In this document: positions 1 through 57,962 of the stretch, piece by piece | How the letters are laid out: the number at the start of each line of letters is the position of its first letter | Position numbering within the stretch: position 1 is the first letter of the stretch | From: Sulfurovum sp. | GTDB taxonomy: Bacteria > Campylobacterota > Campylobacteria > Campylobacterales > Sulfurovaceae | DNA length: 64,000 nucleotides | Assembly (NCBI GenBank): GCA_027068485.1 | Contig: JAMOSB010000017.1 | Location: 1 to 64,000 of the forward strand | Direction: 5' to 3' | Position numbers and translations under genes: made by a program | The notes under the pieces: model-generated | What the model saw: only the letters and a program-made list of their open reading frames with translations | Told to the model about the DNA's origin: nothing | Database searches by the model: none

Positions 1-90
1 AAATACAGAAATAGAAGAAAAAGATTTGGCTTGAGATTTAATCTAATCTGTGCTTTAGTAAACTTGGATAGAGGTTTTGCGGTTAAATGA
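1..90 (+). CDS. IS5-family transposase, C-terminal fragment (cut by window edge)
   Basis: The first 29 codons read openly to a TGA at 88-90. The peptide contains RKRFGLRFNLI and then NLDRGFAVK, a pattern I associate with the basic C-terminal end of IS5-type DDE transposases. Only this tail is in the window, so catalytic residues and integrity cannot be judged. The stop lies 2 bases before the terminal repeat, the tight packing expected of an insertion sequence. Confidence 0.7.
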   Translation, partial: KYRNRRKRFGLRFNLICALVNLDRGFAVK

Positions 91-110
91 TAGGTTATGC
101 AAGAAGTCTA
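1..110 (+). mobile_element. Right end of an IS5-like insertion sequence (partial)
   Basis: The window starts inside an insertion sequence. Its transposase reading frame ends at 88-90 and is followed at once by the terminal repeat GGTTATGCAAGAAGTC (93-108) and a TA dinucleotide (109-110). The last 13-14 bases recur as both ends of the short element at 1124-1203, which confirms that they are an element terminus. DNA right of 110 is the interrupted RloB-like gene. The left part of the IS lies outside the window, so its length and intactness are unknown. The family call rests on the transposase C-terminus. TA flanks are also seen with IS630-type elements, so the family is likely rather than certain. 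Confidence 0.75.
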
Positions 111-427
111 ATATTGCTATGACAAATCCTCTATTTGAATTTTGGTTATTATTGCATGTAGATGATATTACTAAATATGATAATGAAATTTTATATATTA
201 ATGACTGGATTACATCAAGTAAAAATAGAAGATATATTGATAAGCAACTTTCAAATATATTAGCAAATGGTTATAATAAGAAAAATTTTAATAAAGAAAT
301 CGTAACTAAAGATAATATAGATAGAGCCTTAGAACAGGAAAAATTATTTGAAAATAATATAGAAAAAATTATGGATAATTTAGGTTCTAATATTGGAGAT
401 TTAATTCGTAATATATTTAAAACCTAA
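111..427 (+). pseudogene. RloB-like protein, N-terminally truncated by the IS
   Basis: About 105 codons read through to a TAA at 425-427. The segment MTNPLFEFWLLLHVDD matches the conserved core of RloB/Abi-type proteins (usually S-N-P-x-F-E-x-W-L-L-L-H). RloB proteins are about 200 residues, are often found in restriction-modification or phage-defence loci, and carry a Toprim-like fold in their N-terminal half. Here that half is missing: the IS terminal repeat ends at 110 and RloB-like sequence starts right after it. A TTG at 77 could start a chimeric ORF whose first residues come from the IS end. The gene is very AT-rich. Its stop codon lies inside a possible attC remnant, so it may once have been an integron cassette gene. 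Function is probably lost. Confidence 0.7.
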
Positions 428-441
428 CTCAGCCGTTAGAC
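422..441 (+). repeat. Possible degenerate attC remnant
   Basis: ACCTAAC (422-428) fits the integron R'' box (RYYYAAC), and GTTAGAC (435-441) fits the R' box (GTTRRRY). Only six bases separate them, so the usual hairpin is absent. The RloB-like stop codon lies in the R'' box, as is usual for cassette genes, and the toxin-antitoxin cassette starts directly after R'. It may be an attC site that lost its stem by internal deletion. Two 7-base boxes could also arise by chance. Confidence 0.4.
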
Positions 442-446
442 TCCAT

Positions 447-475
447 TTGAATTTTACAAAAATTTGTAGTATAAT
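447..475 (+). promoter_or_regulatory. Sigma-70-type promoter of the toxin-antitoxin pair
   Basis: TTGAAT (447-452) and TATAAT (470-475) are separated by 17 bases, with the antitoxin start codon 22 bases after the -10 box. An own promoter is expected for a TA cassette that may be inserted far from the integron promoter. Confidence 0.7.
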
Positions 476-498
476 GTATCTACAAAAGGATACATTAT
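471..498 (+). promoter_or_regulatory. Palindromic operator over the -10 box and start codon
   Basis: ATAATGTATC (471-480) and GATACATTAT (489-498) are perfect 10-base inverted repeats separated by 8 bases. They cover the -10 box on one side and the first bases of the antitoxin start codon on the other. Ribbon-helix-helix antitoxins commonly repress their own operon by binding such repeats. Self-repression here is inferred from position and symmetry. Confidence 0.6.
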
Positions 499-724
499 GA
501 AGAAAGCTATAAATATTAGAATGGATGAAACACTTTTAAGTGCTTTAGATTCTTATGCACAAGAACTTGAACGCTCTCGTACTTATATTATTGAAAAAGC
601 GGTAGGTACATATTTTGATACATTAGATGAGATGATTTCAGATAAACGCATAGATGAATTAAAAGCTGGAAAAACTGAAGTATATTCCCTTGAAGAGGTA
701 GCACAAAGACTTGGACTAAACTAA
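497..724 (+). CDS. Ribbon-helix-helix antitoxin (RelB/CopG-like)
   Basis: A 75-residue protein. The N-terminus (KKAINIRMDETLLSALDSYA) has the beta strand plus helix expected of a ribbon-helix-helix DNA-binding domain. The C-terminus, ending EVYSLEEVAQRLGLN, resembles the toxin-binding tails of RelB-like antitoxins. It should bind and neutralise the toxin encoded next and repress the shared promoter. Its stop TAA overlaps the toxin start by one base (TAATG), giving translational coupling with the antitoxin made first. The start ATG lies at the edge of the palindrome 471-498. Family assignment is firm; subfamily is not. Confidence 0.85.
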   Translation: MKKAINIRMDETLLSALDSYAQELERSRTYIIEKAVGTYFDTLDEMISDKRIDELKAGKTEVYSLEEVAQRLGLN

Positions 725-975
725 TGTTTAAAATTATTGTTCCAAAAGCTACTTTTAAAGAGTTAGAAAAAATTGATGCACAAAATCAAAAACTTATCTT
801 TGAAAAAATCAAAGATTTAGAAGTAGGAAATTTTTCAAATGATAAAGCTTTAAAAGGTAAACATAAAGGTAAGTTTAGAAAAAGAGCAGGAAACTATAGA
901 ATTGTGTATTTAAAAGAGAATGATATTTTAGTAATTACTCTCATTAGAATTACTCATAGAAAAGAAGTTTACTAA
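724..975 (+). CDS. RelE/ParE-superfamily toxin
   Basis: An 83-residue protein with the RelE-fold pattern: an N-terminal strand (FKIIVPKATFKEL), two helices, then RKRAGNYRIVY and the C-terminal strand with ITHRKEVY. The order R-x-G-x-Y-R-I-V-Y followed by I-x-H-R-K-x-x-Y is the usual active surface of RelE-type mRNA interferases. ParE-type gyrase poisons share the fold, so the target cannot be fixed from sequence. Length is normal and nothing appears broken. Its stop lies two bases before the attC site, so the pair fills the cassette. Confidence 0.87.
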   Translation: MFKIIVPKATFKELEKIDAQNQKLIFEKIKDLEVGNFSNDKALKGKHKGKFRKRAGNYRIVYLKENDILVITLIRITHRKEVY

Positions 976-977
976 CA

Positions 978-1049
978 GTCTAACAAGTCAGAGTAGCCAA
1001 TACATTACTAACGGCAATGTATTGGCTATCTTCAGCCTCGCCGTTAGAT
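978..1049 (+). repeat. attC: attC recombination site of an integron cassette
   Basis: R'' is GTCTAAC (978-984) and R' is GTTAGAT (1043-1049), complementary at six of seven positions. Between them TAGCCAATACATT (994-1006) and AATGTATTGGCTA (1016-1028) form a perfect 13-bp stem with a 9-base loop. The flanking imperfect segments (985-993 and 1029-1042) fit L'' and L' arms. Total length, box sequences, the central hairpin and position right after a gene's stop codon all match attC sites, which integrases recognise as folded single strands. A rho-independent terminator is unlikely because no T-tract follows. Confidence 0.8.
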
Positions 1050-1063
1050 TACAAAGGAATATA

Positions 1064-1415
1064 TTGACTAAAAATGAAGCAATAAAAAAATAAATGTTTT
1101 AGAGTTAACAGATTTAAGTAATAGACTTCTTGCATAACCAAAAAAATGATAAAATCTCTTAAAAATTATATTGGTTAAGAAATGAAGAATTATGCAAGAA
1201 GTCTAGTATGTAATTTTGATTTTGAAAAAATATTTGGAGAGATTGGAAAAGGTTTTATTCATGTACATCATGTAAAACCATTATCAGAAGTTAACGAGGA
1301 ATATAAAATTAACCCAATTCAAGATTTAAGACCAGTATATCCAAATTGTCATGCTATGATACATAGTAAAAAACCAGCATACAAAATAAAAGATATTAAA
1401 AAGCTAATTGAGTGA
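1064..1415 (+). pseudogene. HNH endonuclease gene, frameshifted and interrupted by a MITE
   Basis: A TTG at 1064 follows an AAAGGA ribosome site and opens a peptide starting TKNEAIKK. This stops at 1091, but a one-base shift in the A7 run (1084-1090) continues as INVLELTDLSN up to the inserted element at 1124-1203. After the element the frame resumes with FDFEKIFGEIGKGF, the HVHHVKPLSE catalytic block and LRPVYPNCHAMIH. These are the hallmarks of McrA-like HNH nucleases, which cut DNA and occur in restriction systems and integron cassettes. The usual CPNC zinc pair reads YPNC, so one ligand is lost. An ATG at 1182 inside the element could start a 77-residue chimera. The gene is most likely dead. 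Confidence 0.75.
1124..1203. mobile_element. 80-bp MITE with IS-matching terminal inverted repeats
   Basis: The ends are exact inverted repeats: GACTTCTTGCATAA (1124-1137) and TTATGCAAGAAGTC (1190-1203). Each side is flanked by TA, consistent with a target duplication (1122-1123, 1204-1205). The same terminus ends the IS at 95-108. The interior has no transposase, so it would have to be moved in trans by that IS. The right part GGTTAAGAAATGAAGAATTA also loosely resembles the last 30 bases of the IS, suggesting an internally deleted copy. It sits inside the HNH nuclease gene. Confidence 0.75.
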
Positions 1416-53372: not shown

Positions 53373-54524
53373 ATGGCTAAAATATACATAACTTCTCTAC
53401 TTCTTCTCTCAGGTGTTGCGATGGCAAAGCCTGTGGAGTGTCGGATTGCGATAGAGGGTACCTCCTCTTGTAACCCCTACAGTATGAAACTCCTTCGTGT
53501 GCAACATATCGACTACAGGCATACAGGAGAACACGCTACTATGGGTAGGGAGCGGAGTAGTAAGGTAGTTGAAGTCCCTGCAAAGGTAGTTCCTGTTGAG
53601 GAGCCTCGTGACTACATAGACTATACTCAAGTAGAGGAGCCTGTACGGTTTAGAGGGAAAGAGGAACTAGAGAGTCAGCATAGTCTATGGAAGAAAAAAG
53701 AGGAGATCTATACCCGTATTGAGGCGATACGCACCGCACGGGAAGCATTTTTTGCTAAGATGCAAGCAGAGCGTGCCAAGCGAGAAGCCCGAGAACAGGA
53801 GGCGATACGCGTTGCCAAAGAGGAGGAGCGTAAACTCCTAGAGGAGAAGCGTAAACACCAAGGCTACTACACTATTAAGAAGGGGGATAGCTTAGGGAAG
53901 ATTGCACAGATATTTGATCTTAAAATCTCCGAGATCAAATCCCTCAATGGGTTGAAGAAAAAAGCCCTACTCAAAGTAGGTCAGAGTCTTCTCCTCCCCT
54001 ATCCTCAAGAGAAGATTGACGCGATTGCGACGGGAGAGTATCGTGTCAAATCAGGGGATACACTAGGACATATTGCACAGAAGTTTGGTCTTACTACCAA
54101 AGCGATTAAAGAGTTCAACCACTTCAAACGCAACACGCTACTGCGTATCAATGAGAAGATACTCCTCCCTTTCCCTCATAAGCTCGCAGAGATGCAACGC
54201 TACAGCAAATATGGCAGGCACGAACTGCGTGTCACCGCAACAGCCTATAGTTCACACGCTAACCAGACCGATAGCACCCCTTTTCTTGCCGCATGGAATA
54301 ACCGTTTGGCTCCAGGGATGAAGGTCATCGCCGTCTCACGCGATCTGCTTAAACGCTACGGGATGCGTAATGGTACCAAGGTGCGGATCTCTGGACTTAG
54401 TGGACTCTATGAAGTGCGTGATAAGATGAACAAACGCTACCGTAAACGCATCGATATCTATATGGGACTCAACCGTAAACGGGCACTGCGTTGGGGACGA
54501 CGCAGTGTCGTCATCCACTGGTAG
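53373..54524 (+). CDS. Secreted protein with two LysM domains and a 3D domain
   Basis: A 383-residue protein: signal peptide (about 4-18), a charged coiled coil (about 100-160), two LysM peptidoglycan-binding modules (about 165-210 with KKGDSLGKIAQ; about 222-267 with KSGDTLGHIAQ), and a 3D domain (about 287-383, VTATAYSSHANQTDSTPFLA, GMKVIAVSRDLLKRYG, YEVRDKMNKRYRKRIDIYM). The 3D domain carries the catalytic Asp residues of MltA-like lytic transglycosylases and Rpf2/YabE-type wall hydrolases, so glycan cleavage is likely. It follows thrC by 15 bases. Confidence 0.88.
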   Translation: MAKIYITSLLLLSGVAMAKPVECRIAIEGTSSCNPYSMKLLRVQHIDYRHTGEHATMGRERSSKVVEVPAKVVPVEEPRDYIDYTQVEEPVRFRGKEELESQHSLWKKKEEIYTRIEAIRTAREAFFAKMQAERAKREAREQEAIRVAKEEERKLLEEKRKHQGYYTIKKGDSLGKIAQIFDLKISEIKSLNGLKKKALLKVGQSLLLPYPQEKIDAIATGEYRVKSGDTLGHIAQKFGLTTKAIKEFNHFKRNTLLRINEKILLPFPHKLAEMQRYSKYGRHELRVTATAYSSHANQTDSTPFLAAWNNRLAPGMKVIAVSRDLLKRYGMRNGTKVRISGLSGLYEVRDKMNKRYRKRIDIYMGLNRKRALRWGRRSVVIHW

Positions 54525-55565: not shown

Positions 55566-57962
55566 TTACCTTTTTGGAATGAGTAGTTTGATCTCTTTGC
55601 CTTTGGTGGCACCATTGAGTTCGACAATAAACCCTTGAAACGGAAGGAGCTTACACCCCTCAGCAGAGTCATCTGCACAGGTGATATAGCCATTGTTTCC
55701 TGCTTTGTTATCATTGGGGGCGTAGAGCCAGACCTGCTTATTGGCATACTTGGAGTCATTGGCTTCGCTTGGTGTATAGGCATCCCCATCGATAAGGAAG
55801 CGACAATCTGCCCACTCTACGGGCTTCTCTATCCCGATATAGCCACTAAAATTATAACGATAGGGACCTCCAATCGCACCACTATCACCATCACTCTCAT
55901 CGAGTGTTACTGCTTTGAGAGGTATCTCGACACAAGTATCATCTTGCCCGCACGCACTGCTTGTGGAGTTGTAGTCAACAACAGCAAGTTTATCTACTCC
56001 CCAGTCACTAGAGAGTTTGCTCCCTAGCCAATACCCCACCCCAAACTCCAAGGTATCACTAAGACTATCGAGATGCTCATACCAGCTACTGTTGTTGCTC
56101 TCACTGTAGACGCGTCTGTAGAGTCTCCAGTCACTATTGAAGCTACCATTCATATCATCTCCAAAAGTGTTGCTGATATTGTGTTCCTCTTGACGACTAT
56201 CCGCAGGGATACCGACAAGCTCCCAGCTCTTGGCAGTGATATGAGCAGAGGTACAGTTTTGACAGATACGAGCCTCTCCCGTATCGTAGTTTTTACCATC
56301 AGATTCATTATCATAGATCGCTTTGATCTCATTTTTATCAAGGACACGCCCCCAGACCTTGACCTCATCAATCCCCCCTTGCCAGCGATCATCGGTGCTA
56401 CTGCCTGAGATATCATCTCCGATAGAGAGAGCCAATGCACCAGGGGTGTAGTTGGATTGTTTGACAGACTTGCTTATCCAACCTTGTGAGACAATCTTTC
56501 CATCGATATAGAGACGGATATCACTTCCATCATAGGTACCTACCACATGTGTCCATGCCTCATCGTTGAGCCTACCTTTGGCATAGACCTCATAGCTATC
56601 TACAAAAAAGTGTATCTCATTGTCTTGCGTACCCTTCTGGTGGATAATCCCCCATCCATCTTTCCAGCTATCATCACTCACCTTGATGATACCTGCCATC
56701 CACTTATCCTTATCGTTATTTTTCTTAAGCCAGAGAGAGATAGAGAAGGGGGCATACTTGGCGATGCCTTCCTCTATCCCCGTTGTATTTGGGTAGTAGA
56801 CCGCATCACTCTTGTTGGTATCAGCATAGTTGTTGATAAAGGCTCCAGAGCGACAGAGTAGGGCATCGGACTTGACATTGTCTGCTTTGTTGCGTGAGGT
56901 AGCATCCAAACCATTACCTGAGTAGTCAAGAATATCCTCTGTGACTCCATTACTTCCCCCCATCCAGTAGCACTCATCCATACGCAGATCGATATAGGGG
57001 TCAGGTGTCACGACGGCGATGATAAAGCTATCGGTGTTGGAGTCCCCATCTTTATCGGTAGCGTAGAGGCTGAGATACTGCTCCCCTAGGGTATCAGGTG
57101 TGCCTGAGATGATCTGTGTGCTAGCGTCATAGCTGAGTCCATGGGGAAGTGTACCCTCCAAATGGTAGGCGGTGATAGGATCCCCATTGGTTTTTGAGAC
57201 ATAGGTGGAGAGATCCAGAGAGAAGCTGACATTGACCTCTGCTAGTGTATCGGGGATATCATGGACAACAGGAGGCATATCGGGAGGCGGGGTGAAGTTG
57301 ATGGTGAGACGGGGAGCTACGGAGCTATTTTGATCTTGACTATAAAACTGTCTAAAGCAGGTCTCATCCTTACAGCCACTAGAGGGCTTAAAGAGGAGTA
57401 CGATGGTGTGGTTGTTCTCCCACCCGCGTCCTATGACTACCTCACTGATGATAGGGGTAACGGTGACATTGTACTTTTGGTCTTGACTCCACGCCTCTAC
57501 ACTCCACTCGATGGTTGTCTCATTCTCAACTCTATCGGTGATATTATTCTCATCTGTAGAGAATCGTGGAGCACGGTTCAAGGCTTCACTGACAATGGTG
57601 ATATTGGTTTCGGTATTTTGAGTATTGGAGGAGGTGAAGGTGATATAGGCATAGTTGATGGTCGCACCAAAGGGGATATCGACAGGGGCGAAGTGTAGTC
57701 CATCCTCTTGTCGAAACTCATCTGTCATCATCATTCCGATGAAGCTAAAGAATCCACCCCCTCCACATTGAAGCATAAAGTCATTGTTATGTGTATTGGC
57801 ACACCCTAGATTGATGATAGTATCATTGATGGTGACAGTATTATCCTCTAGTGCCTCATAGGCATCACTACTACTTTGAGATAGCTCTACCTCCACACTC
57901 TCAGCATGGAGTCCACTCAGACACCATAGACCCAAAAGCACTACCCATATAACTCTCTTCAT
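55566..57962 (-). CDS. Secreted LamG / Ig-like surface protein
   Basis: A 798-residue secreted protein. A signal peptide (about 3-20) is followed by a beta-rich region (about 20-225), a putative Ig domain (about 230-322, TLPHGLSYDASTQIISGTPD, ATDKDGDSNTDSF), and a LamG/concanavalin-like domain (about 325-555, SISLWLKKNNDKDKWMAGII, GTYDGSDIRLYIDGKIVSQG, GGIDEVKVWGRVLDKNEIKA). The last 230 residues are an unassigned domain with WELVGIP and GVGYWL signatures. LamG domains bind glycans or act in adhesion. No LPxTG, autotransporter or type 9 sorting signal is evident, so anchorage is unknown. Confidence 0.8.
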   Translation of the reverse strand: MKRVIWVVLLGLWCLSGLHAESVEVELSQSSSDAYEALEDNTVTINDTIINLGCANTHNNDFMLQCGGGGFFSFIGMMMTDEFRQEDGLHFAPVDIPFGATINYAYITFTSSNTQNTETNITIVSEALNRAPRFSTDENNITDRVENETTIEWSVEAWSQDQKYNVTVTPIISEVVIGRGWENNHTIVLLFKPSSGCKDETCFRQFYSQDQNSSVAPRLTINFTPPPDMPPVVHDIPDTLAEVNVSFSLDLSTYVSKTNGDPITAYHLEGTLPHGLSYDASTQIISGTPDTLGEQYLSLYATDKDGDSNTDSFIIAVVTPDPYIDLRMDECYWMGGSNGVTEDILDYSGNGLDATSRNKADNVKSDALLCRSGAFINNYADTNKSDAVYYPNTTGIEEGIAKYAPFSISLWLKKNNDKDKWMAGIIKVSDDSWKDGWGIIHQKGTQDNEIHFFVDSYEVYAKGRLNDEAWTHVVGTYDGSDIRLYIDGKIVSQGWISKSVKQSNYTPGALALSIGDDISGSSTDDRWQGGIDEVKVWGRVLDKNEIKAIYDNESDGKNYDTGEARICQNCTSAHITAKSWELVGIPADSRQEEHNISNTFGDDMNGSFNSDWRLYRRVYSESNNSSWYEHLDSLSDTLEFGVGYWLGSKLSSDWGVDKLAVVDYNSTSSACGQDDTCVEIPLKAVTLDESDGDSGAIGGPYRYNFSGYIGIEKPVEWADCRFLIDGDAYTPSEANDSKYANKQVWLYAPNDNKAGNNGYITCADDSAEGCKLLPFQGFIVELNGATKGKEIKLLIPKR

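Follow-up and report, generated by a model that had tools for sequence, protein, structure and literature searches.

Integrons have been described from a range of phyla that includes the Campylobacterota (PMC8618304). Clusters of attC sites lacking an integrase (CALINs) were reported for Sulfurovum sp. NBC37-1, and one In0 together with one CALIN for Sulfurimonas autotrophica (PMC10295459). The threshold for a CALIN in IntegronFinder 2.0 is two attC sites (PMC9024848). Cassettes encoding toxin–antitoxin pairs are well known from Vibrio (PMC11023631). The first-pass annotation of the DNA analysed here regarded a cassette in a Campylobacterota-like chromosome as a taxonomic surprise. This surprise is small, as integrons of Campylobacterota were common in our genome searches and had already been published (PMC8618304, PMC10295459); the host taxon is unremarkable, integrons being a regular part of these genomes and no gammaproteobacterial peculiarity. 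No paper describing this particular cassette, or giving the integrase and attC frequencies presented below, was found outside the subscription literature.

The window, meaning the whole stretch of 64,000 nucleotides analysed, comprised bases 1–64000 of a 71-kb contig (C17) from a 1.73-Mb genome in 38 contigs. Position 1 of the window is the start of this contig, which the first-pass annotation had missed; the 50 kb on the left that it proposed to check are therefore absent from this assembly. The features of the locus were as follows:

1–109, plus strand: end of an insertion sequence (IS) at the contig start, with a transposase C-terminus (1–90) and a terminal inverted repeat (93–109)
110–427, plus strand: 3′ fragment of an RloB-like (AbiLii-like) gene (PF13707; AbiLii match in PADLOC)
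422–441, plus strand: left cassette boundary, with R″ ACCTAAC (422–428), 6 bp, and R′ GTTAGAC (435–441)
about 436–1043, plus strand: gene cassette of 608 bp, TTAGAC...G (R′/R″ complementarity, homologous cassettes)
497–724, plus strand: CopG/ribbon-helix-helix antitoxin gene, 75 aa, intact (PF01402, 22.7 bits)
724–975, plus strand: RelE/ParE-family toxin gene, 83 aa, intact (PF05016, 30.3 bits)
978–1049, plus strand: attC site (covariance model R1, folding, shuffle test)
1044–1122, plus strand: first 79 bp of the next cassette, ended by a MITE (comparison with the intact HNH copy at C7:173495–174232)
1123–1203, no strand assigned: 81-bp MITE made from both ends of the IS at 1–109 (inverted repeat AGACTTCTTGCATAA)
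1204–1415, plus strand: 3′ fragment of an HNH endonuclease gene (PF01844)

The chromosomal integrons of two Campylobacterota relatives (G082 and G202) have the same attC family, in the same orientation after gene stops, and that of G082 carries the toxin–antitoxin cassette of the window. The window differs from both in that an integrase was not found, the attC sites are reduced to one intact and one apparently core-deleted copy, and IS/MITE copies cut both sides. An attC without a neighbouring integrase is shared with CALINs and single-attC elements; however, with one intact and one core-deleted site, the locus falls under the IntegronFinder 2.0 threshold of two sites per cluster (PMC9024848). 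The likeness to the cassettes of the Vibrio cholerae superintegron (PMC11023631) lies in a unit of two toxin–antitoxin genes that has a promoter-like region of its own and ends in an attC. The host phylum and the attC sequence are different, and, unlike in V. cholerae, the array is nearly gone and a large array is no longer stabilised. Relative to the aadA1 attC of class 1 integrons, the R″ (GTCTAAC) and R′ (GTTAGAT) boxes were identical and the extrahelical base was on the same arm, whereas the stem in the window is AT-rich and of unrelated sequence, and a class 1 model misses it.

The boxes of the site are located at 978–984 (R″) and 1043–1049 (R′) and conform to the attC consensus (R″ RYYYAAC and R′ GTTRRRY, mutually complementary). 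Between them lies a perfect 13-bp stem (TAGCCAATACATT/AATGTATTGGCTA). The stop codon of the RelE-type open reading frame ends at 975, and R″ starts 2 bp further on. The boxes, the spacing, the stem and the position directly after the stop agree with the description in the first-pass annotation, which had overlooked a 5-nt insertion (TCGCC) preceding R′; this insertion makes the site slightly atypical. An extrahelical G is present on the left arm and aligned with the covariance model R1, rendering the hairpin imperfect, as in other attC sites. The predicted folding energy was −16.9 kcal/mol (z −6.6) for the bottom strand and −12.9 kcal/mol (z −4.0) for the top strand. Both strands folded more stably than nearly all of the shuffled sequences, the bottom strand more strongly so, as is expected of an attC.

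A strict search of the attC architecture, which demanded both box consensuses and a stem of 10 bp or more, returned 978–1049 as the sole match in the 64 kb and no match in 60 dinucleotide shuffles. The covariance model R1 was built from 13 aligned attC sites, 12 from the same genus and one from a different family within the order; all were taken from other genomes, the window site being left out, and the pairs in the alignment were backed by changes on both sides. With this relatives-only model, the site scored 62.4 bits (E = 4.2 × 10−14), with no second match in the window. The covariance-model search proposed in the first-pass annotation was therefore significant, and its rating of the site as a strong attC candidate was upheld. 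A scan of the window against Rfam gave no match; to our knowledge, Rfam contains no attC family. The site at 978–1049 was also missed by a model derived from five attC sites of class 1 integrons. This narrow model likewise misses the attC behind the G082 integrase, and it is thus uninformative on the site in the window.

Integron integrases, defined as matches above the TIGR02249 integron-integrase cut-off, were present in 20 of the 78 genomes of the genus and in none of 14 control genomes. At least one attC was identified by model R1 in 40 of the same 78 genomes, and a wider sample of the order gave integrases in 21 and attC sites in 43 of 150 genomes. Many sister genomes had attC sites with no integrase detected. 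On four contigs of different relatives (G018:C93, G081:C73, G013:C32 and G031:C18), the integrase match was spread over two reading frames, apparently as the result of a frameshift or a stop, and from these matches integrase decay looks frequent in the genus. A second attC sequence type (GAGGAGACCAATAATTTACCC...) was also observed in the genus (L027, L065 and L072, in G013, G018 and G024); in G013 and G024, single arrays contain both this type and the main one.

The toxin–antitoxin cassette of the window also stands behind an integrase in the sister species G082. On contig C1 of that genome, the integrase (53471–54415) is followed by same-strand attC sites at 56421, 57040, 57619 and 58221, the last of which closes a homologous cassette, complete with both boundaries and with 92% (CopG) and 86% (RelE) identity. 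Three further genomes (G006, G001 and G028) carry the homologous cassette with one boundary or with boundary remnants. The close homologues extend from R′ to R″; for homologues of 76% identity or less, no attC was found in the flanks read. In G202, the complete genome of a member of another family of the order, the integron (C1:1146764–1164794) consists of an integrase and, behind it, a long row of same-strand attC sites over ~16 kb. When relatives were searched with the window region, the hairpin alone matched in many unrelated gene contexts, as AAC...GTT hairpins. Complementarity between R′ of one site and R″ of the next is the mark of recombination at G^TT. In four arrays of relatives, R′ of each site and R″ of the following site agreed at a mean of 6.75 of 7 bases, with none of 20,000 permutations as good. 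Given that integron integrases of the same genus and order are followed by arrays of closely similar sites, 978–1049 is an attC of integrase-mediated origin, as had been proposed in the first-pass annotation, and IntI has presumably recombined at this site in the past.

The cassette extends from 436 to 1043, with G^TT on the left and the attC on the right, and recurs as a unit elsewhere. Its own start, GTTAGAC at 435–441, is a second box overlooked in the earlier annotation; it is the exact complement of R″ at 978–984 (7/7 bases), and homology to the cassettes of G082 and G006 starts there. Both boxes are present at the left boundary (422–441) and the hairpin is absent, which suggests an attC with its hairpin core deleted. 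The PF01402 and PF05016 matches of the two cassette genes both exceed their cut-offs, and the stop of the antitoxin gene is overlapped by the start of the toxin gene (724). An adjacent ribbon-helix-helix antitoxin and RelE/ParE toxin, both intact, predict a type II toxin–antitoxin system (CopG/RelE-ParE), and the pair would be expected to be active as such. An inverted repeat (TTGTAG...CTACAA, 464–485) lies upstream of the antitoxin within the cassette and is likely to be the usual autoregulatory operator and own promoter region. Taking the site and the cassette together, we have very high confidence that 978–1049 is a bona fide attC ending an integron gene cassette with a CopG/RelE-type toxin–antitoxin pair.

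The surroundings of the cassette are decayed. The transposase C-terminus at 1–90 (translation KYRNRRKRFGLRFNLICALVNLDRGFAVK*) belongs to an IS that we take to be IS5-like from its C-terminal motif, and the same IS end recurs in contigs C10 and C19. The RloB-like gene keeps its C-terminal half only (PF13707 profile positions 105–195 of 195, 39.5 bits), because this IS end cuts its 5′ side. The fragment has no homologue elsewhere in the genus and is probably the remnant of an upstream cassette. On the right, the HNH fragment is 98.7% identical over 223 bp to contig C7, which carries an intact copy at its far end, and in another genome of the genus (G022) an HNH homologue occupies a cassette, with an attC scoring 86 bits at its stop. 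Of the broken RloB-like and HNH neighbours named in the first-pass annotation, the former is a gene fragment, as stated there, and the latter has a homologue in a cassette. An HNH gene split as the next cassette by a simple MITE insertion was considered and rejected, since the intact C7 copy has another N-terminus than the sequence left of the MITE; the 79 bp at 1044–1122 do not correspond to the 5′ end of the HNH gene on its other side. A rearrangement probably joined 1044–1122 and the MITE to the HNH fragment, and the array itself has probably undergone breakage and rejoining at IS/MITE copies. Near-identical MITE copies were found at C14:49–128, C16:285–360 and C19:301–371, near contig ends. 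MITE copies in such positions are a possible cause of assembly breaks.

The search for an integron integrase, also proposed in the first-pass annotation, found none in the 38 contigs; the best TIGR02249 match was 61.6 bits against a cut-off of 265, and the only two tyrosine recombinases of the genome are both other than IntI. The lack of an integrase in its own genome has no bearing on the identity of the site. Further attC sites, which the annotation had named as possible support, comprised one clear site and one weaker candidate. The second clear attC of the genome (C7:107–176, 50.9 bits) is 107 bp from the contig start and adjoins a fragment of an IS91-type zinc-binding transposase, followed by chromosomal genes, the one beyond the fragment being pyrH on our reading. 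A weaker third candidate (about C5:14583–14637, 34 bits) has an IS/MITE fragment alongside, and appears likely, as we read the region, to follow a DNA methyltransferase-like gene fragment beside restriction-modification genes. The earlier suggestion of an integron or a captured cassette near position 1 holds for the cassette and not for a working integron. With no detectable integrase, the locus is best described as a remnant in which IS/MITE copies cut both sides. As the left attC also lacks its hairpin, the cassette can probably no longer move.

A complete integron requires an intI gene in the genome, and this assembly contains none. The organism may still possess a complete integron, the integrase falling in an assembly gap at an IS or on an unbinned contig; we consider this unlikely, but with an appreciable chance. 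Contig C17 begins inside an IS, the second attC is 107 bp from the start of C7, the completeness of the 38-contig genome is 98.4%, and draft genomes inflate the number of integrase-less clusters (PMC9024848). However, no contig holds any trace of an integrase, the C7 and C5 sites adjoin ordinary chromosomal or restriction-modification genes, the left attC of the window is damaged, and many sister genomes likewise carry attC sites and no detected integrase. These observations favour the remnant without an integrase.

That an integrase supplied in trans inserted the cassette alone at a non-integron site (attG), giving a single-attC element, appears quite improbable. While the bare core GTTAGAC without a hairpin at the left boundary and the singly scattered attC sites of this genome would fit such an event, the left boundary keeps an R″-like ACCTAAC and TCAGCC, as in a core-deleted attC, and the RloB-like gene ends exactly at this boundary, as cassette genes do. 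Lastly, it is scarcely credible that the hairpin is a dispersed palindromic repeat (REP/RAYT-like or another MITE) with a chance likeness to attC, a reading that draws on its strong conservation and dispersal across the genus and on the true MITE nearby at 1123–1203, and that was rejected, as was the unrelated repeat family raised in the first-pass annotation, on the grounds that related sites follow integron integrases as rows at gene ends, all on one strand, that their outer boxes vary yet follow the shifted R′/R″ rule, unlike those of a REP or MITE, and that the MITE has a quite different inverted repeat.

By analogy with active integrons, IntI would recognise the attC at 978–1049 as a folded bottom strand, bind it and cut R′ between G and TT, whereby the cassette would be excised as a circle that could be inserted elsewhere. 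A toxin–antitoxin pair with its own promoter-like operator would punish the loss of its cassette and may in this way have stabilised the array. In the remnant seen here, the cassette would at present be immobile. A broader conjecture, which we regard as improbable, is that in this group of Campylobacterota it is common for cassettes to depart from their integron, be placed by IntI at ordinary sites of the chromosome and survive there as scattered islands of defence genes, each with a single attC, and that this genome represents such a case after integrase loss.

These results provide a usable attC model for this group of Campylobacterota. They identify a toxin–antitoxin cassette common to integrase-bearing and apparently integrase-less Campylobacterota relatives, and present the window as a case of integron decay through IS activity and the loss of an attC hairpin.
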